A stretch of DNA of 64,000 bases, from NCBI RefSeq assembly GCF_019602855.1, contig NZ_CP080766.1, positions 372,001-436,000 on the forward strand. Reading direction: 5' to 3'. This document shows, one piece after another, positions 1,175-17,429 of this stretch. The translations under genes and the position numbers were made by a program. This DNA comes from Cupriavidus pinatubonensis. Lineage in GTDB: Bacteria; Pseudomonadota; Gammaproteobacteria; Burkholderiales; Burkholderiaceae. The notes beneath the pieces were generated by a model, which made no database searches, was not told the DNA's origin, and saw nothing but the letters and a program-made list of their open reading frames with translations. Position 1 is the first letter of the stretch. Each line of letters opens with the position of its first letter.

Positions 1175-1906
1175 ATGCTTCAAGCACCACGGCGCGCAGG
1201 GTTCAGCGGTCCCACGCTGATCCGCCTGCTGGTTCGCCTGACCGGCGACGACGCCCCCGAATCCGGACAATCGCTTTCCGACCAGCTCGGCCAATGGCTT
1301 GGCTGGACGGACGCGATCGCCTTGTCCGCCGCGCTGAACGGCAACCCGCCGGCGGCGGCCGGCGCACGCGCGGGCGGCACCGAACAGGCTGACTGCGCCC
1401 GCATCAGGGCTGCCCTGACGGCAGCCATTGCGGACGACAAGGCGGGCAGCAACCGACAGCGCGGACGGCCGCGCCCGGCCGCGCCGGAGCCGGCGGAAGC
1501 CGTCGTGGACTATGCGGCGTTCCGCCAACGGTACGTCACATTGCAGCAGACCATGGAAACGGAAATCGGCAGCCTGCGCGGCCGCCTGCGGACAACGCTG
1601 GCGGCACGCGGCGCTGGCATGACGCGCCTGTCCATGGTCGATGCCGTCATGGAACGCGTGCTCGGCGCGCGCGAACAGGCGCTCCTGGCCACCGTGCCGG
1701 GGATGCTCGAAGCGCATTTCACGCGCCTGCGCCAGGCCGAGGAAGCCGCACTGGCGAATGCCCAGACGGCGGGCAAGCCGGCACCCGTGTCGTCCGGTGC
1801 CTGGCTGACCGTCTTTCAGAACGATATGCAAAGCGTGTTGCGCGCCGAGCTGGACATCCGCTTCCAGCCCGTCGAAGCATTGCTCGCGGCGCTGCGTGAC
1901 AGCTAA
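1175..1906 (+). CDS. DUF3348 family protein, first gene of motor-like cassette
   Basis: A soluble protein of 243 residues without signal peptide or membrane segment. It has an N-terminal helical part, a low-complexity Ala/Arg/Pro linker (about residues 85-110) and a helical C-terminal half. I recognise it as DUF3348, a family that in Burkholderiales stands directly upstream of a DUF802 gene. Its stop codon (1904-1906) lies 10 bases before the next ATG, so the two are co-transcribed and probably translationally coupled. Function is unknown. Context suggests a cytosolic accessory or assembly factor of the channel encoded downstream. The family name is recalled, not searched. Confidence 0.75.
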   Translation: MLQAPRRAGFSGPTLIRLLVRLTGDDAPESGQSLSDQLGQWLGWTDAIALSAALNGNPPAAAGARAGGTEQADCARIRAALTAAIADDKAGSNRQRGRPRPAAPEPAEAVVDYAAFRQRYVTLQQTMETEIGSLRGRLRTTLAARGAGMTRLSMVDAVMERVLGAREQALLATVPGMLEAHFTRLRQAEEAALANAQTAGKPAPVSSGAWLTVFQNDMQSVLRAELDIRFQPVEALLAALRDS

Positions 1907-1916
1907 CCCAACCATC

Positions 1917-4900
1917 ATGACCCGACCCATTACTCATATCGTCGTCTTCCTGGCAGGCCTGGCCGTCGTGGGCTGGATCGGTGCCGGCTACGCGGGCACT
2001 AATGCGCTGGCCCTGGCCGTCACGCTGCTGATCGGCGGCTTCTACCTTGCAGGGGCGTTCGAACTGAAGCGCTACCGTCAGGCCACGTCCTCGCTGGCGC
2101 AGGCCATCGCGGGGCTGACCGAGTCGCCCGCGGGCCTTGCCGGCTGGATTGAACCGCTGCATCCGAGCCTGCGCAATGCCGTGCGCCTGCGCGTCGAAGG
2201 CGAGCGCACGGCCCTGCCCGGCCCGGCGATGACGCCGTATCTGGTCGGCCTGCTGGTGCTGCTCGGCATGTTCGGCACGTTCCTGGGCATGGTGGCAACA
2301 CTGCGCGGCACCGGGATCGCGCTCGAAGGCGCCGCGGACCTCGACGCCATCCGTGCGTCGCTGGCCGCTCCGGTCAAGGGGCTGGGCTTCGCGTTCGGCA
2401 CGTCGGTCGCCGGCGTCGCCACCTCGGCCATGCTGGGCCTGCTTTCGGCGCTGTGCCGGCGCGAGCGCATCGAGACCGCGCAGGCGCTCGACGCTCGCAT
2501 CGCCACCACGCTGCGCCCGTTCTCGCGCGCGCACCAGCGCGACGAGGCGTTCCAGCTGCTGCAGCGGCAGGCCGACGTGATGCCCACGCTGGTCGACCGC
2601 CTGCAGGCCATGATGACCACCATGGAGCAGCAACACCAGGCCATGTCCGACCGGCTGGCCGCCAGCCAGGCTGCGTTCCATGACCGCACCGACGCGGCAT
2701 ACGGCCGGCTCGCCGACGCCGTGCAGCAGTCGCTGACGCAAAGCATCGCCGACAGCACGCGCACCGTCAGCGCGGCGATCCAGCCGGCTGTCGAGGCCAC
2801 CATGGCAGGCATCGCACGCGAAACCGCGGCGCTGCACACCACCGTCACGGACGCAGTGAAGCAGCAGCTCGATGGCCTGTCGACCCGTTTCGAGGCCACC
2901 ACGGCCACGGTCGCAGACCTTTGGCAACAGGCACTGGCCGGGCACCAGCGCACCAGCGAGGCACAGGCCAGCGACCTGCGCGCCACGCTCGATGGTTTCG
3001 CGCAGACGTTCGATCAGCGCTCGGCCGGCCTGCTCGAAAGCGTGGCCACGCGCCTGGATGCCACGGCGGCCAGTGCAGCTGGGGCCTGGAACGACGCGCT
3101 GGCGCGGCAGGCAAGCCTCGGCGAGAAGATGGCCGGCGACAACCGGCAGGCCGTGGCGAATGCCGCAGCCGCGTTCGAGCAGCAAGCGGCTTCGCTGGTG
3201 CAGGCCGTGGCCCGCACCCATGCGGACCTGAAGCAGGAACTGTCCGCGCAGGACGCCCAGCGCCTGCAGACGTGGGCAGACACGCTCGGCGCGGTTGCGG
3301 CGACCCTGCGCAGCGAACTGGAACAGGCCAGCGCCCGCAGCGCGAGCCACCAGCAGGAAACCGCCGCTACGCTGGCGCAAACCGCGCGAGATATCTCCGC
3401 CGAGGCTCGCACGCACGCCAGCAGCACCATTGCCGAGATCGACCGTCTAGTGCAGGCCGCAGAACATGCTCCGAAAGCCGCTGTCGCGCTGCAGGAAGAA
3501 CTGGCCTCTCGCGATCAGCAGCGCCTGACCGCGTGGACCGAGGCGCTGGCAGGCATGGCCGCGACGCTGCGCGCGCAGATGGAACAGGCCAACGCCAGTG
3601 CCGCTGGCCATCAGCAGCAGATCACGGAAACGCTGGCACAGACCGCGCGCGATATGTCGGCCGAAGCGCGTACGCACGCCAGCACCACCATTGCCGAGAT
3701 CGACCGCCTCGTGCAGGCTGCCGAACTGGCGCCAAAGGCCGCTGTCGCGCTGCAGGAAGAACTGGCCTCTCGCGATCAGCAGCGCCTGACCGCGTGGACC
3801 GAGGCGCTGGCCGCCATGGCCGCGACGCTGCGCACGCAGATGGAACAGGCAGGTACGAACGCCGCTGAGCAGCAGCAAAGGATCACCGAAACGCTGGCGC
3901 AGACCGCACGCGATATGTCGGCCGAGGCCCGCACGCACGCCAGCACTACCATCGCCGAGATCGACCGTCTAGTGCAGGCAGCAGAGCTGGCCCCGAAGGC
4001 CGCTGTCGCGCTGCAGGAAGAACTCGCCTCCCGCGACCAGCAGCGCTTCACCGCGTGGACCGAGGCGCTGGCCACCATGGCCGCGACGCTGCGCACGCAG
4101 ATGGAGCAAGCCGGCGAGCAATCGTCCGACCGCCACCAGGCCATCACCGAAGCGCTGGCACAGACTGCCCGCGATATCTCGAACGAAGCCCGCACGCACG
4201 CGAGCAGCACGATCGCCGAGATCGACCGCCTCGTGCAGGCAGCAGAACTGGCCCCGAAGGCCGCCGTCGCGTTGCAGGCCGAGATCGTTGCGCGCGAGGA
4301 GCAGCGGATGGCCGCCTGGACCGAAACGCTCAGCGCCATGGCATCGTCGCTGCGCCAGGAATGGGAGCAGACCACCGCGCAGACCGTCAGCCGCCAGCAG
4401 GACATCTGCGACACGCTGGCGCAGACCACGCGCGACATCTCCGCACAGACGCACGCACAAGCGAGCCACACCATCGCCGAAGTCTCCCGCTTGGTGCAGG
4501 CCGCCACCGAAGCGCCCAAGGCCGCGGCCGAAGTCATCGCCGAACTGCGCCAGAAGCTCACGGACAGCATGGCGCGCGACAACGCGATGCTGGAAGAGCG
4601 CAGCCGCCTGCTTGAAACCCTGGGCACGCTGCTCGACGCCGTGAACCATGCGTCCACGGAGCAACGCGTGGCGGTCGACTCGCTGGTCACCACCACGGCT
4701 GGCCTGCTGGACCGTGTCGGCACGCGCTTCCACGAGCAGGTCGAGTCCGAGACTGGCAAGCTGGCCACCGTTGCCGCACAGGTCACGGGCAGCGCAGTCG
4801 AAGTCGCAAGCCTCGGCGAAGCGCTCGGCGTTGCCGTTCAGGTGTTCAGCGAGTCCAATGACAAGCTCATGGCCCATCTGGAGCGCATCGAGACCGCGCT

Positions 4901-5054
4901 CGACAAGTCCATGACGCGCAGCGATGAACAGCTTGCCTACTACGTGGCACAGGCGCGTGAAGTCGTCGACCTGAGCATGCGGTCGCAGAAGCAGGTGCTT
5001 GAAGACCTGCAGCAACTCGCCGGGCAGCAGGCATCCAACGCAGAGGCCGCATGA
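1917..5054 (+). CDS. DUF802 protein: MotA/TolQ-like channel with long repetitive tail
   Basis: A protein of 1045 residues. Membrane segments are visible at about 7-25, 29-47, 107-128 and 155-178. The third contains LLGMFGTFLGMVATL, which matches the GLLGTVxGM signature of TolQ/ExbB/MotA. The fourth (PVKGLGFAFGTSVAGVATSA) matches their second conserved pore helix. After residue 190 there is an uninterrupted Ala/Gln/Glu-rich helical tail of about 850 residues containing five 87-residue repeats. That plan, a proton-channel subunit plus a giant cytosolic tail, is the plan of ZorA in Zorya systems. ATG 1917 is preferred; GTG 1896 (overlapping the previous stop) is an alternative. It overlaps the OmpA gene by 4 bases (ATGA). 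Function is unknown; a proton-driven motor is an inference. Confidence 0.8.
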   Translation: MTRPITHIVVFLAGLAVVGWIGAGYAGTNALALAVTLLIGGFYLAGAFELKRYRQATSSLAQAIAGLTESPAGLAGWIEPLHPSLRNAVRLRVEGERTALPGPAMTPYLVGLLVLLGMFGTFLGMVATLRGTGIALEGAADLDAIRASLAAPVKGLGFAFGTSVAGVATSAMLGLLSALCRRERIETAQALDARIATTLRPFSRAHQRDEAFQLLQRQADVMPTLVDRLQAMMTTMEQQHQAMSDRLAASQAAFHDRTDAAYGRLADAVQQSLTQSIADSTRTVSAAIQPAVEATMAGIARETAALHTTVTDAVKQQLDGLSTRFEATTATVADLWQQALAGHQRTSEAQASDLRATLDGFAQTFDQRSAGLLESVATRLDATAASAAGAWNDALARQASLGEKMAGDNRQAVANAAAAFEQQAASLVQAVARTHADLKQELSAQDAQRLQTWADTLGAVAATLRSELEQASARSASHQQETAATLAQTARDISAEARTHASSTIAEIDRLVQAAEHAPKAAVALQEELASRDQQRLTAWTEALAGMAATLRAQMEQANASAAGHQQQITETLAQTARDMSAEARTHASTTIAEIDRLVQAAELAPKAAVALQEELASRDQQRLTAWTEALAAMAATLRTQMEQAGTNAAEQQQRITETLAQTARDMSAEARTHASTTIAEIDRLVQAAELAPKAAVALQEELASRDQQRFTAWTEALATMAATLRTQMEQAGEQSSDRHQAITEALAQTARDISNEARTHASSTIAEIDRLVQAAELAPKAAVALQAEIVAREEQRMAAWTETLSAMASSLRQEWEQTTAQTVSRQQDICDTLAQTTRDISAQTHAQASHTIAEVSRLVQAATEAPKAAAEVIAELRQKLTDSMARDNAMLEERSRLLETLGTLLDAVNHASTEQRVAVDSLVTTTAGLLDRVGTRFHEQVESETGKLATVAAQVTGSAVEVASLGEALGVAVQVFSESNDKLMAHLERIETALDKSMTRSDEQLAYYVAQAREVVDLSMRSQKQVLEDLQQLAGQQASNAEAA
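3174..4478 (+). repeat. Five tandem 261-bp (87-codon) repeats inside the DUF802 gene
   Basis: The codons for the sequence AEIDRLVQAAE recur at 3435, 3696, 3957 and 4218, with a degenerate copy at 4479 (AEVSRLVQAAT). Every interval is exactly 261 bp, and the unit before 3435 is more diverged. Copies 2-4 are almost identical over long stretches at DNA level (the ALQEELASRDQQR segment), which implies recent duplication or gene conversion. An exact 87-residue period keeps helical phase and would lengthen a rod-like tail in fixed steps. Confidence 0.9.
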
Positions 5055-5698
5055 GAGACGACATCGACGCCGGCGTCGAGCCGTCGGTACCCGCATGGGC
5101 CGTATTTGGCGACCTGATGACGGTGGTGCTCGGCGCGTTCGTGCTGATTCTGCTTGGCGTCATCGGCGCCCAGATGGAACTGACGGCCCGGCTCGAGAAA
5201 GAGGCGAAGCAGCGCCAGGAAGAAATGCAGCGCCGCGAGAGCCTGGAAAAGGCGCTGGCGGCCCCGCTGGCCGCCGGCCGCGTGACGCTGGTGAACGGCC
5301 GCATCGGCATCAATGGCAGCGTGCTGTTTGCGATCAACTCGGACCAACTCCAGCCACAAGGCCGTGACGTGCTGAAAAGCCTGGCCGGCCCGCTGTCGGC
5401 CTATCTGCGCTCGCGCGACGAGATCCTGATGGTCAGCGGCTTTACCGACGACCAGCAGGTGCGCGAACGCAACCGCCGCTTTGCCGACAACTGGGAACTG
5501 TCCGCCCAGCGCGCTTTGACCGTGACTCGCGCGCTGATCGATGCCGGCATTCCGGCCGCTTCCGTGTTCTCGGCCGCGTTCGGCGCGGAGCAGCCAGTGA
5601 CATCGAATGCCGACGAAGCCGGCCGCGCCAGGAACCGGCGCGTGGAGATCGCCCCGGTGCCGCGCGTGTCGATGGGAACGGCCAAACCCCATGGCTGA
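5051..5698 (+). CDS. OmpA/MotB-like peptidoglycan-binding partner of the DUF802 channel
   Basis: A protein of 215 residues. One N-terminal membrane helix (about 15-36, PAWAVFGDLMTVVLGAFVLI) carries Asp21 at the place of the proton-accepting Asp32 of MotB (ADFMT there, GDLMT here). A short charged coiled coil (42-70) leads to an OmpA/MotB domain (about 80-205) with the peptidoglycan-binding pattern NWELSAQRA and a terminal NRRVEI. By family knowledge this is the stator partner that anchors to the wall and completes the ion path with the MotA-like subunit. It overlaps DUF802 by 4 bases and the next gene by 8, so stoichiometric co-translation is likely. Confidence 0.85.
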   Translation: MRDDIDAGVEPSVPAWAVFGDLMTVVLGAFVLILLGVIGAQMELTARLEKEAKQRQEEMQRRESLEKALAAPLAAGRVTLVNGRIGINGSVLFAINSDQLQPQGRDVLKSLAGPLSAYLRSRDEILMVSGFTDDQQVRERNRRFADNWELSAQRALTVTRALIDAGIPAASVFSAAFGAEQPVTSNADEAGRARNRRVEIAPVPRVSMGTAKPHG

Positions 5699-6341
5699 CG
5701 ACGCCATGCAGAACACCCTGATGGCTTGGCGCGAAAGCGGCGCAGACCGCGTCGACCCCGTACGGTTTCGCCTGATCGAAGCGATGGCACGGCGCGCGGC
5801 CGCGCACAGCGGCGACGCGCGCCGGCTGCTCGATGACAGGCTTGCCGAACTGGTCAGGGCTTACGGGGATGCAGTGGGGGACGCCGAATGCCCGAGCGAC
5901 ACCGCGAGCGGTGCGCCTCGAACACCCCTGCCCGTGCGCGGCGCGCTGGCCGACGTCGTCGACTACATCGCGAGCCGCGTGCAGGAGCCGGACGCCATGC
6001 CCGCCCGCAGCGCCGCGACGCCGCGCAACACACCACGTGTGGAACCCGGGCTGATCGATTACTTCCGCGACACCTGGACCCGCGTCAGCGCCGGCCAGCA
6101 GTTGCAGCAGTCGCTGGAGCGCGTCCCCGAGCATGCGGGACCGCTGAATTCCAGCCATCTCGTCCACCGTTCGCTGACGCTGATGCGCGAGATGTCGCCG
6201 GAGTACTTCGAGCAGTTCCTGTCGTACGTGGATGCGCTGACGTGGCTCGAACAGATGAGCAGCGGCGGTGCCGTGGCCAGCAAGGAAGCCCCGCGCGCCG
6301 GCGTCGTGAAGAAGGCCACCAGAGCCCGGACGCGCAAGTAA
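5691..6341 (+). CDS. DUF2894 family protein, last gene of motor-like cassette
   Basis: A soluble protein of 216 residues from ATG 5691, which overlaps the OmpA stop by 8 bases; ATG 5706 is a possible alternative. It begins with a helical region (ADRVDPVRFRLIEAMARRA), has a variable middle and a conserved-looking segment LIDYFRDTWTRVSAGQQLQQSL, and ends in a Lys/Arg-rich tail that could touch nucleic acid or membrane. I recognise DUF2894, which accompanies DUF802 and DUF3348. No enzymatic motif is visible. Tight coupling argues that it works with the channel complex on the cytosolic side. Confidence 0.75.
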   Translation: MADDAMQNTLMAWRESGADRVDPVRFRLIEAMARRAAAHSGDARRLLDDRLAELVRAYGDAVGDAECPSDTASGAPRTPLPVRGALADVVDYIASRVQEPDAMPARSAATPRNTPRVEPGLIDYFRDTWTRVSAGQQLQQSLERVPEHAGPLNSSHLVHRSLTLMREMSPEYFEQFLSYVDALTWLEQMSSGGAVASKEAPRAGVVKKATRARTRK

Positions 6342-14467: not shown

Positions 14468-14670
14468 GGAAGGGCAGCGGCAGGACGCCACATCGCGAGA
14501 GCACGTAGCCCCAGGGTTCCAAGGATCAAAACGCCGCAGGGGCCAGCGCGCTGTCAGACCCCACCGACACGCGAATCGGCCGCAACCGGCTCCACAACCC
14601 GTAAGCGCACGAAGTATGATGCTCGCGTCTTCATGGCGGCTTGCGGGCCGCAGTGCGTCAGGAGGCAAGC

Positions 14671-15777
14671 TTGGACCACCCACGGCCGCCCACATCCGAA
14701 TCCCGCCACGCCCACGACCTTATCATCGCCCGCCCCGAGGGCCTTTACTGCCCGCCCGGTGACTTCTACATCGACCCGTGGCGCCCGGTAGATCGCGCCG
14801 TCATTACCCACGCCCATTCCGACCACGCCCGTTTCGGCCACGCGCACTACCTGTGCGCCGAACCCGGTCGCGGCGTGCTGCTGGCACGGCTGCCTGGCAT
14901 TCAGCTCGACACCCTGCCGTACGGCCAGCGCATCACGCACCACGGCGTCACGCTGAGCCTGCATCCGGCCGGCCACGTGCTTGGCTCCGCGCAGGTGCGA
15001 CTCGAATTCGGCGGCCAGGTATGGGTGGCCTCCGGCGACTACAAGCTGGAATCCGATGGCACCTGCGACCCGTTCGAGCCGGTGCCGTGCGACACCTTCA
15101 TCACCGAAAGCACCTTCGGCCTGCCGATCTACCGCTGGCCGCCGCAGGCGGCACTAATGGCGGAGGTTTTCCACTGGTGGCAGGCCAACGCGCAGGCAGG
15201 ACGCGCCAGCATCGTTTACGCCTACACCTTCGGCAAGGCACAGCGCATCCTGCACGGCCTGCTGCGCCATGCCGGCGATGACGGCCTGCCAGGGCCAGTC
15301 ATCGCACACGGCGCGCTGACCACGCTCAACGGCGCCTATGCCGAAGCCGGCGTGGCGCTGCCGCCGATGATGCTCGCCACCGAACTGCCGCCACGCAGCC
15401 CGCTGCTGCGGCAGGCACTGGTGGTAGCGCCGCCGTCGGCGCAGCGCTCGCCTTGGCTGCGCCGCTTTGGCGATGCGTCCGATGCGTTCGCCAGCGGCTG
15501 GATGCAGTTGCGCGGCACGCGCAGGCGCCGCGGCGTGGACCGCGGCTTCGCGCTGTCCGATCATGCCGACTGGCCCGGGCTGCTGAAAGCGATCGAAGCG
15601 ACGGGCGCCGGCCGCGTGATCGTGACGCACGGCAATGTGCCGGTGATGGTGCGCTACCTGAGCGAGCGCGGCTGGCAGGCGCAGGCGTTCGATACCGAAT
15701 ACGGCGACGACGACGAATCCGCACGCGCCGATGAGCAGGCTGAGCCAGCCGCCGCCAGTGAGGATACGGCGCCATGA
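14671..15777 (+). CDS. Ligase-associated DNA exonuclease (metallo-beta-lactamase fold)
   Basis: A protein of 368 residues with the metallo-beta-lactamase/CPSF signature THAHSDHARFG and later HPAGHVLGSAQ, SGDYKLE and the terminal beta-CASP-like VIVTHGN. These groups coordinate two metal ions in nucleases of the SNM1/CPSF type. The family sits beside an ATP-dependent ligase and usually a Lhr-type helicase in a bacterial DNA-repair operon. A TTG start at 14671 is chosen because AGGAGG lies five bases upstream. The stop overlaps the ligase start (ATGA), so the two are coupled. The acidic Ala/Glu tail is not conserved in style. Confidence 0.85.
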   Translation: MDHPRPPTSESRHAHDLIIARPEGLYCPPGDFYIDPWRPVDRAVITHAHSDHARFGHAHYLCAEPGRGVLLARLPGIQLDTLPYGQRITHHGVTLSLHPAGHVLGSAQVRLEFGGQVWVASGDYKLESDGTCDPFEPVPCDTFITESTFGLPIYRWPPQAALMAEVFHWWQANAQAGRASIVYAYTFGKAQRILHGLLRHAGDDGLPGPVIAHGALTTLNGAYAEAGVALPPMMLATELPPRSPLLRQALVVAPPSAQRSPWLRRFGDASDAFASGWMQLRGTRRRRGVDRGFALSDHADWPGLLKAIEATGAGRVIVTHGNVPVMVRYLSERGWQAQAFDTEYGDDDESARADEQAEPAAASEDTAP

Positions 15778-17429
15778 AGGCCTTTGCCGATCTCTACGCC
15801 GCGCTCGACGGCACCACCTCCACCAAGGCGCGGCTGGCCGCGCTGGTGGATTACCTGCGCGCGGCGCCGCCGCAGGACGCCGCCTGGGCCGTGTATTTCC
15901 TCGCGGGCGGCAAGCCACGCCAGATCGTGCCGGTGGCCCTGCTGCGCGACATGGCACGTCAGGCCGCCGACCTGCCGGACTGGCTGTTCGAGGAAAGCTA
16001 CCAGGCCGTGGGCGACCTGGCGGAGACCATCGCACTGTTGCTGCCGGACCCCATGGATGCCGATCATGCCGGCCTGGCCGAATGGGTCGAGCAGCGCCTG
16101 CTGCCGCTGCGCGGCCTGCCGCCCGACGAACTGATGCCGCGCCTCGATGCGCTGTGGCGGCCGCTCGACGCGCACGGCCGGCTGGTGCTGTTCAAGCTGA
16201 TCACCGGCGCCTTTCGCGTGGGCGTATCGCGGCTGCTGGTGACGCGAGCGCTGGGTGAAGTCGCCGGCATTGACCCCAAACGCGTGGCCGAGCGCATGGT
16301 CGGCTACACCGACCTGTCCGCGCGGCCCGACGCAACGCGATTCCAGGCACTGCTCGCACCCGAAAGCGAGGACGACCGCGAACTGCGCGCCAACGGCCAG
16401 CCCTTCCCGTTCTTCCTCGCGCATCCGCTGCAGGTTCCGCTGGAGCAGTTCGATGCCGTGCTGGGCGACCCGGACAACTGGCAGGTCGAATGGAAGTGGG
16501 ACGGCATCCGCGCGCAGCTCGTCTGCCGCGGCAATCAGACCTGGCTGTGGTCGCGCGGCGAGGAACTGATTACCGAACGCTTTCCCGAGATCGTCGAGGC
16601 CGCCGCGGCACTGCCTGACGGCACCGTACTCGACGGCGAGATCGTGATCTGGCAACAGGGCCGCGTGCAGCCCTTCGCGCTGCTGCAGCAACGCATCGGC
16701 CGGAAGACGCTGAACGCGAAGCTGCTGCGCGACGCGCCGGCCATCCTGATGGCCTATGACCTGCTCGAATGGCGGGGAGAGGACTGGCGCACGCGGCCGC
16801 AAGCCGAGCGCCGCACCCGGCTGGAACAGCTTGTCGCCAGTCACGTGCACCCGGCACTCGAACTGAGTCCGCTGGTGCAGGCCGGCGACTGGGCGCACTT
16901 CGCCAGGCTGCGCGAGGCGTCGCGCGAGATGGGCGTGGAAGGCTTCATGTTGAAGGCCGCAAGCGCAGCCTATGGCGCGGGCCGCACCAAGGACGTCGGT
17001 ATCTGGTGGAAATGGAAGATCGACCCATTCTCGGTCGATGCGGTGCTGGTCTACGCGCAGCGCGGCCACGGCCGCCGCGCGAGCCTCTATACCGACTTCA
17101 CGTTCGCGGTCTGGAACGCGCCGCCAGGCACGCCCAATCGCGCCCTGGTGCCGTTCGCCAAGGCCTATTCCGGCCTGACCGATGAGGAAATGCGCGCAGT
17201 CGATGCCATCGTTCGGCGAACCACGGTGGAGAAGTTCGGCCCGGTGCGCAGCGTCGAGCCAACGCAGGTATTCGAGCTGGGCTTTGAAGGCATCGCCCGC
17301 AGCGGCCGGCACAAAAGCGGCATTGCGGTGCGCTTTCCGCGCATGTTGCGCTGGCGCACCGACAAGCCGATCGACGAGGCCGATACGCTAGCCACGCTGG
17401 AGGCGATGCTCCCCGTCAGTCCAGCGTAA
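15774..17429 (+). CDS. ATP-dependent DNA ligase (repair-operon type)
   Basis: A protein of 551 residues. An alpha-helical DNA-binding domain (1-200) is followed by the nucleotidyltransferase core. Its adenylated lysine is Lys241 in EWKWDGIRAQ, and further motifs are LDGEIVIWQ and the MLK of the EGFMLK segment near 385. An OB-fold domain with WWKWKIDPFSVDAVLVYAQ completes it. The enzyme joins nicks using ATP. It has neither polymerase nor phosphoesterase domains, so it is not LigD. It lies 4 bases inside the exonuclease gene. The helicase and phosphoesterase that usually complete this operon are absent downstream, where the gene instead converges and overlaps 14 bases with a TctC gene. Confidence 0.88.
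   Translation: MKAFADLYAALDGTTSTKARLAALVDYLRAAPPQDAAWAVYFLAGGKPRQIVPVALLRDMARQAADLPDWLFEESYQAVGDLAETIALLLPDPMDADHAGLAEWVEQRLLPLRGLPPDELMPRLDALWRPLDAHGRLVLFKLITGAFRVGVSRLLVTRALGEVAGIDPKRVAERMVGYTDLSARPDATRFQALLAPESEDDRELRANGQPFPFFLAHPLQVPLEQFDAVLGDPDNWQVEWKWDGIRAQLVCRGNQTWLWSRGEELITERFPEIVEAAAALPDGTVLDGEIVIWQQGRVQPFALLQQRIGRKTLNAKLLRDAPAILMAYDLLEWRGEDWRTRPQAERRTRLEQLVASHVHPALELSPLVQAGDWAHFARLREASREMGVEGFMLKAASAAYGAGRTKDVGIWWKWKIDPFSVDAVLVYAQRGHGRRASLYTDFTFAVWNAPPGTPNRALVPFAKAYSGLTDEEMRAVDAIVRRTTVEKFGPVRSVEPTQVFELGFEGIARSGRHKSGIAVRFPRMLRWRTDKPIDEADTLATLEAMLPVSPA

Follow-up and report, generated by a model that had tools for sequence, protein, structure and literature searches.

A near-core, single-copy operon assigned to Zorya type III in Burkholderiaceae, with a ZorA tail that varies in 87-residue steps

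The window analysed here, a stretch of 64,000 nucleotides of Cupriavidus pinatubonensis, sits on a contig of 2.73 Mb in a genome of 7.55 Mb and holds, at positions 1175-6341, four intact plus-strand open reading frames (ORFs) that overlap or adjoin one another. Their products would combine a membrane channel bearing a long cytosolic tail with a wall-binding partner and two soluble proteins, which raises the questions of which system this is and what a bacterium of this family keeps it for.

Gene set and identity of the operon

The first-pass annotation had described four overlapping or nearly overlapping genes for a DUF3348 protein, a channel with a tail, an OmpA-like subunit and a DUF2894 protein, and both the ORFs and the Pfam matches agree with this description (Table 1); the two remaining proteins matched DUF802 (ZorA, E 8e-30) and OmpA (ZorB, E 1.5e-18). 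The longest ORFs, all on the plus strand, run over 1175-1906, 1896-5054, 5051-5698 and 5607-6341. Because the PADLOC match of ZorA begins at ORF residue 8, zorA probably starts at ATG 1917 rather than at GTG 1896 of its longest ORF, and the DUF2894 gene probably starts at ATG 5691, not at 5607, with an overlap of 8 bases with the zorB stop. A 4-base overlap of zorA and zorB was present in 61 of 64 counted loci. In each of the 60 loci fetched for their DUF3348 gene, the three companion genes are present and the gene order is unchanged. The dN/dS ratios of six pairs, determined for three genes, were 0.03-0.12 for ZorB, 0.10-0.18 for ZorA and 0.16-0.27 for DUF3348, and these three proteins are under purifying selection. 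The order conserved in 60 of 60 loci and the dN/dS range of 0.03-0.27 show that the gene set did not come about by chance.

Table 1. Features of the operon, in window coordinates.
Feature	Coordinates	Strand	Evidence
DUF3348 protein, 243 aa	1175..1906	+	Pfam PF11828 E 6e-93; PADLOC ZorG3 E 4.7e-93
zorA3 (probable start): MotA/TolQ/ExbB-type membrane part and long coiled-coil cytosolic tail	1917..5054	+	PADLOC ZorA3, reported E 0
Five tandem 87-residue (261-base) tail units, the last diverged	3264..4568	+	Self-similarity, HMM, TRF
zorB3, 215 aa: transmembrane helix with Asp21 and OmpA/MotB-type peptidoglycan-binding domain	5051..5698	+	PADLOC ZorB3 E 1.3e-113
DUF2894 protein, 216 aa from ATG 5691 (probable start)	5691..6341	+	Pfam PF11445 E 5.7e-63; PADLOC ZorF3 E 6.1e-79

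Since the type-III-specific PADLOC models ZorA3, ZorB3, ZorF3 and ZorG3 match all four proteins (E 6e-79 to 0), we assign the set, on the strength of these profiles, to Zorya type III. The window operon is a clear member of an already known system, named in 2021: Zorya type III was described by Payne et al. 2021 as ZorA, ZorB, DUF3348 and DUF2894 at 6,401 loci, and when the set of Stenotrophomonas nitritireducens was cloned in E. coli BL21-AI, one phage or more formed fewer plaques (PMC8565338). The window operon has all four components and the type-specific profile matches in common with it. At the outset the locus had been called a cassette of unknown function and unstudied; the former is ruled out by the type-III-specific matches, and the latter was wrong, as one member of the type is anti-phage (PMC8565338). 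The nomenclature calls for care, as the text of Payne et al. 2021 uses ZorF for DUF3348 and ZorG for DUF2894 (PMC8565338), whereas PADLOC-DB (PDLC00652-00658) swaps the two names, with DUF3348 as ZorG and DUF2894 as ZorF. The same text also speaks of 'pairs of zorBC genes', where zorAB seems to be meant (PMC8565338).

The window system has a ZorAB motor plan like that of Zorya I (ZorABCD) and II (ZorABE), including the Asp of ZorB, the long tail and the peptidoglycan domain (PMC11890865). It differs from both in that none of the four proteins matched the PADLOC models of ZorC, ZorD or ZorE at E 0.001 and no nuclease was recognised; in the whole genome, searches for EH_Signature and for ZorE were likewise without a match. 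Neither the ZorC and ZorD of Zorya I nor the ZorE nickase of Zorya II was therefore found in the window operon, and two soluble proteins stand in the place of the ZorC/ZorD effectors, as the first-pass annotation had noted.

Predicted motor subunits, ZorA tail and soluble proteins

The proposed ZorA/ZorB plan is borne out by the PADLOC matches and by matches to the PDB entries 8vvn and 8qyd, both of which we take to be Zorya type I complexes. A channel profile built from 29 sequences matched a single PDB chain up to E 0.1, 8vvn_C (E 1e-6), which bears the PDB name MotA/TolQ/ExbB proton channel protein and is presumably the type I ZorA of Shewanella; no MotA, TolQ or ExbB chain was among the matches in that range. 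The PADLOC models ZorA1 and ZorA2 match the window ZorA weakly. Based on the PADLOC ZorA models and the match to 8vvn_C, the channel appears to belong with MotA/TolQ/ExbB, and its placement in this superfamily thus withstood the profile search, though the Pfam MotA/ExbB model missed the channel at E 0.001. The membrane part comprises approximately residues 1-200 with four transmembrane helices, as judged by eye from the sequence, and the DUF802 match (ORF residues 328-380) lies outside the channel, in the tail. T121 and S163 of ZorA are invariant (29/29) and, by their position, are candidate residues of the ring.

Searched against the PDB, a ZorB profile built from 28 sequences hits numerous OmpA/MotB domains. 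Among the 60 listed of its 77 PDB matches, only 8vvn_B (8-206) and 8qyd_F (9-200), presumably type I ZorB, span the membrane part too. OmpA is the sole Pfam match of ZorB at 0.001, which agrees with the peptidoglycan domain annotated initially, and no ExbD/TolR-type B subunit was recognised. Asp21, in the motif GDLM, is invariant (28/28), in keeping with the proton-accepting role that it had been given. The critical Asp of ZorB, which lies against a ring of Ser/Thr residues in ZorA, is D24 in Zorya I and D21 in Zorya II (PMC11890865).

The tail of the window ZorA contains five 87-residue units according to lag-87 self-similarity and an HMM count; the units are 61-87% identical in DNA, and TRF reports an array at 3300-4441 with a period of 261 and 4.4 copies. 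Among 36 proteins of the genus, tail length, counted from a fixed motif to the end, increases by 85 residues per unit (r 0.96). For all 56 proteins used, the increase is 75.8 residues per unit (r 0.90), a weaker fit that reflects long tails of unlike sequence in other genera; the regression leaves aside two unit-less proteins (G447 and G380) and seven of the other 63, in which the fixed motif was not found. As the unit model was built on the window's own units, diverged units elsewhere may be undercounted. Tails with two units measure 677 and 681 residues in the genus, those with three units 761-768 in five of seven (G003 and G007 are off at 890), those with four units exactly 852 in ten of 13 and 853-856 in the others, those with five units exactly 939 in nine of ten and 921 in the last, and the one with seven units 1114; the one-unit tails of the genus, with 525, 601 and 613 residues, are off this ladder. 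In tails with at least two units, ZorA length thus changes in steps of about 87 residues, mostly as whole repeat units, and the Zor tree implies at least 18 changes in unit number. Such steps are absent from the account of Payne et al. 2021 as far as its text is accessible (PMC8565338).

The hydrophobic periodicity of the window tail is 3.62 residues, above 500 of 500 shuffles, and tails with at most one unit (n = 17) have a mean peak of 3.66. At 3.625 residues per turn, 87 residues make 24 turns, so that the gain or loss of a whole unit would leave the register of the coil intact. Steps that preserve the register in this way may serve a function; simple slippage also changes the number of tandem repeats.

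The AlphaFold2 model of DUF3348 consists of helices only and forms a helical bundle (pLDDT 84.5, pTM 0.80), while that of DUF2894 is helical, its end being poorly predicted (pLDDT 76, pTM 0.40). Structure look-ups for both returned generic helical arrangements, and no effector enzyme was recognised among them. Judging from these models, neither soluble protein looks nuclease-like, though either may still have nuclease activity. DUF2894 has a basic C-terminal end: the net charge of its last 30 residues has a median of +5 over 97 proteins and reaches +4 or more in 87 of them.

Distribution, genomic context and inheritance

DUF3348 is present in 51 of 60 genomes of the genus (47 of the 54 of good quality) and, in one draw of 200 genomes of the family, in 133, spread over 11 of 25 genera; class-wide it is sparse (8 of 369 genomes, the genome studied here included). 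DUF2894 occurs in the identical genomes (51/60 in the genus, 8/369 in the class). The operon is single-copy in each genome, double matches being neighbouring fragments of a single gene or, in one case, a weak match below the cut-off. Among the 20 listed of the 67 family genomes without DUF3348, 14 are of 2.6 Mb or less. The marker EH_Signature, which we take to be the ZorC domain of Zorya I, was found in 13 of 200 genomes of the same family draw and adjoins a ZorA1 match in G034, G035 and G054. Near-full-length type I ZorA (E 1.3e-21 or better) occurs in five of 60 genus genomes; the ZorA1 search at E 0.001 matched 51 of 60, weakly in most, and only the five were counted as type I because the weak matches come through ZorA3 or coiled coils. 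ZorE gave just four weak partial matches in the 60 genus genomes. One genus member without Zorya III, G034, has a near-full-length type I ZorA with an adjoining EH_Signature gene.

Zorya III in Burkholderiaceae is thus near-core and single-copy, which is new with respect to the prior description; the patchy presence that would mark mobile defence-island cargo was not seen (51/60 in the genus, 133/200 in the family). Payne et al. 2021, in contrast, stress a patchy spread of defence systems at the genus level (PMC8565338). A Variovorax strain has been listed with Zorya type III (PMC11953036), and a Zorya system, with no type stated, has been predicted in C. necator H16 (PMC12645576).

A search with ZorB gave at least 80 loci. 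Among the 80 listed, all four genes were found in 27 of the 28 loci with at least 48% identity (at least two of these 28 are also in our set of genomes), the exception being L275, where the two soluble proteins had no matches; the remaining 52 were weaker, at no more than 47% identity. Judged by eye, the flanks are common within locus groups and differ across genera. A fixed genomic position is ruled out by this variation of the flanks between locus groups. Of 75 distinct immediate neighbours at most six match PADLOC at 1e-10, a raw count derived from six PADLOC families with one neighbour protein each; in the window it is none of nine. Among the 25 listed of 88 Pfam families, the neighbours are mainly metabolic, transport and regulatory proteins. 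A neighbourhood made up of other defence genes, which would point to mobile defence-island cargo, was not seen in these PADLOC counts. The window neighbours include a thioredoxin-like protein, BKACE, an AraC regulator, a symporter, TctC and a DNA ligase. The ATP-dependent ligase gene (15774-17429) lies about 9 kb downstream of the operon and has no PADLOC match; the 374-residue gene just before it (14653-15777) matches neither Pfam nor PADLOC. The first-pass annotation had offered defence islands and conserved positions as alternatives: the outcome is mixed, with a near-core presence and few defence-like neighbours but a position that varies.

In a plasmid collection, ZorB3 was found on 27 of 72,556 records, the smallest of 366 kb. 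A phage collection gave one match, to OmpA only, and viral contigs gave 20, none of which extended beyond the wall domain or exceeded 48% identity. Carriage on phages or on plasmids below 366 kb was thus not found in the plasmid, phage and viral-contig collections. In 19 of 20 operon-positive Cupriavidus assemblies of at most ten contigs, the operon and rpoB are on different contigs (hand count; G020 is too fragmented for certain contig placement). The exception is G046, with both on one contig, as is also the case in G008, and since these differ from the 19 of 20, the operon has probably moved between replicons in G046 and G008. In four of 87 scanned loci (L056, L057, L076 and L272) the operon is preceded by a tRNA gene at a distance of about 80-300 bases, the remaining tRNA calls being farther away or inside genes; no integrase was present among ten neighbours scanned near L056 and L076.

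The rpoB tree comprises 66 genomes; 40 of the 51 operon-positive genomes of the genus are represented in it and in the Zor tree. G051 and G151 were omitted because no whole rpoB was available for them, and the comparison with gyrB kept 56 of 59 genomes (G025, G046 and G199 dropped). Within the genus, the distance correlation with rpoB is 0.79 for Zor and 0.81 (DNA) or 0.85 (protein) for gyrB, while over all genera it is 0.69 for Zor versus 0.95 and 0.96 for gyrB. Over 56 genomes, Zor has 17 of 53 splits in common with rpoB and gyrB DNA 24 of 53. Strong splits contradicted strong rpoB splits in nine of 24 cases for Zor, six of 29 for gyrB DNA and three of 16 for gyrB protein; with gyrB as the yardstick, conflicting strong splits numbered 12 of 24 for Zor and nine of 29 for rpoB. 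G003 and G007 group with other genera, and G137 with G123 and G178 of another genus. Of the tRNA-adjoining loci, L056 (G007) and L057 (G003) are those of the clearly displaced genomes, and L076 belongs to G008, displaced with weak support only. Based on the distance correlations and the split conflicts relative to gyrB, Zor is, as measured by distance, inherited mainly vertically within the genus, with conflicts more frequent than for gyrB, and it has been transferred between genera. Seven of the 54 good genus genomes are without the operon, which requires five gains or losses on the rpoB tree (at least four by supported branches); since such gains and losses are forced, the operon is dispensable.

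A proposed ion-driven motor and its possible native role

We propose that the operon probably encodes a Zorya III ion-driven sensor-motor of the envelope that is kept as near-core immunity. A 5:2 ZorA:ZorB motor has been published for Zorya types I and II, and the following sequence of steps is proposed here: (i) ZorA and ZorB would form such an ion-driven 5:2 motor in the inner membrane; (ii) the ZorB dimer would be held, or become held, by the cell wall, and a disturbed wall, for instance upon entry of phage DNA, may engage it and start rotation; (iii) ion flow past ZorB Asp21 and the ZorA Ser/Thr ring would then turn the ZorA pentamer round the ZorB dimer; (iv) the five ZorA tails, bundled into a coiled coil that would reach up to about 125 nm into the cytosol if each tail were one straight helix, may pass the rotation on to the two soluble proteins, DUF3348 and DUF2894, which accompany the motor and would do the work that nucleases do in types I and II. 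The motor reading draws on the type-III-specific profile matches, the invariant residues of the ion path, the intact four-gene unit, the occurrence of DUF3348 and DUF2894 in identical genomes, the periodicity of the tail, the PDB matches and the published phage protection; defence would then be the native job of the operon. Against it stand a near-core, single-copy presence unusual for a defence system, the failure to recognise an effector enzyme, the channel's failure to match the Pfam MotA/ExbB model and a null result in B. cenocepacia K56-2. In that strain, only the first one to two genes of a predicted Zorya III changed upon Bcep176 infection, and knock-down of predicted defence systems left host fitness with Bcep176 unaltered, although the authors explain why a null knock-down could still be compatible with an active system (PMC12584637). 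The literature searched, mostly papers available without subscription, yielded no study of how type III works, of its near-core spread or of the tail units.

The native job is the only point in which the next reading departs from ours. The motor may be mainly a resident cell machine, for envelope upkeep or for carrying force and signals from wall to nucleoid via the tail and the basic DUF2894 terminus, with phage protection from plasmids as a side effect. This we consider unlikely, yet deserving of serious attention: the operon occurs in 133 of the 200 genomes of the family draw against 13 for the Zorya I marker, in one copy each and under purifying selection, DUF2894 has its basic end, the neighbours are seldom defence-like, distances within the genus follow rpoB about as well as those of gyrB (0.79 against 0.81-0.85), and knock-down was without effect on phage infection in one host (PMC12584637). 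A resident machine, however, fits poorly with an operon that is missing from seven of 54 good genomes through at least four gains or losses and so is dispensable, that varies in position and has been transferred between genera, and of which one member protects E. coli against phages (PMC8565338). A further, speculative and unlikely reading would make Zorya III in Burkholderiaceae a resident, near-core motor between wall and cytosol and no transient defence cassette; its tail would serve as a ruler in 87-residue steps (24 helical turns, about 13 nm) that keep the coil in register, and the helical DUF3348 and DUF2894 would work without a nuclease, perhaps by anchoring the rotating tail to the nucleoid with the basic DUF2894 terminus.

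We regard it as improbable that the set is a standard mobile defence cassette, now widespread in Burkholderiaceae. Flanks that differ between locus groups, the tRNA genes just upstream in four of 87 loci and the larger share of strong splits in conflict with rpoB (9/24 versus 6/29 for gyrB DNA) would suit such a cassette, but it was not found on phages, viral contigs or plasmids below 366 kb, and its single copies in 51 of 60 genus genomes differ from the five of 60 with type I ZorA and the four weak partial matches of ZorE. A variant of the flagellar stator or of Tol/Exb unrelated to Zorya is highly improbable. MotAB and Tol/Exb have the ion-channel plan in common with the window system, and MotB the OmpA-type wall domain as well; the very long coiled-coil tail and the two dedicated soluble partners set the window system apart, the type-III-specific models fit all four proteins, and OmpA is the one Pfam family matched by ZorB. 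The channel-profile match to 8vvn_C, presumably a ZorA and the sole one up to E 0.1, leads us to reject a stator or Tol/Exb identity.

The Zorya III sensor-motor that we favour would thus follow the motor plan of types I and II, which are reported to work via DNA-damaging soluble proteins, without a recognised nuclease, and two thirds of the sampled species of this large family retain it. Its near-core life style, stepped tail and missing nuclease make the system worth specialist time. Since a motor of this type without a recognised nuclease is so widely kept, laboratory strains of Cupriavidus are good native hosts for asking what it senses and how it acts, and their natural tails of one to seven units provide a ready experiment on the importance of tail length.
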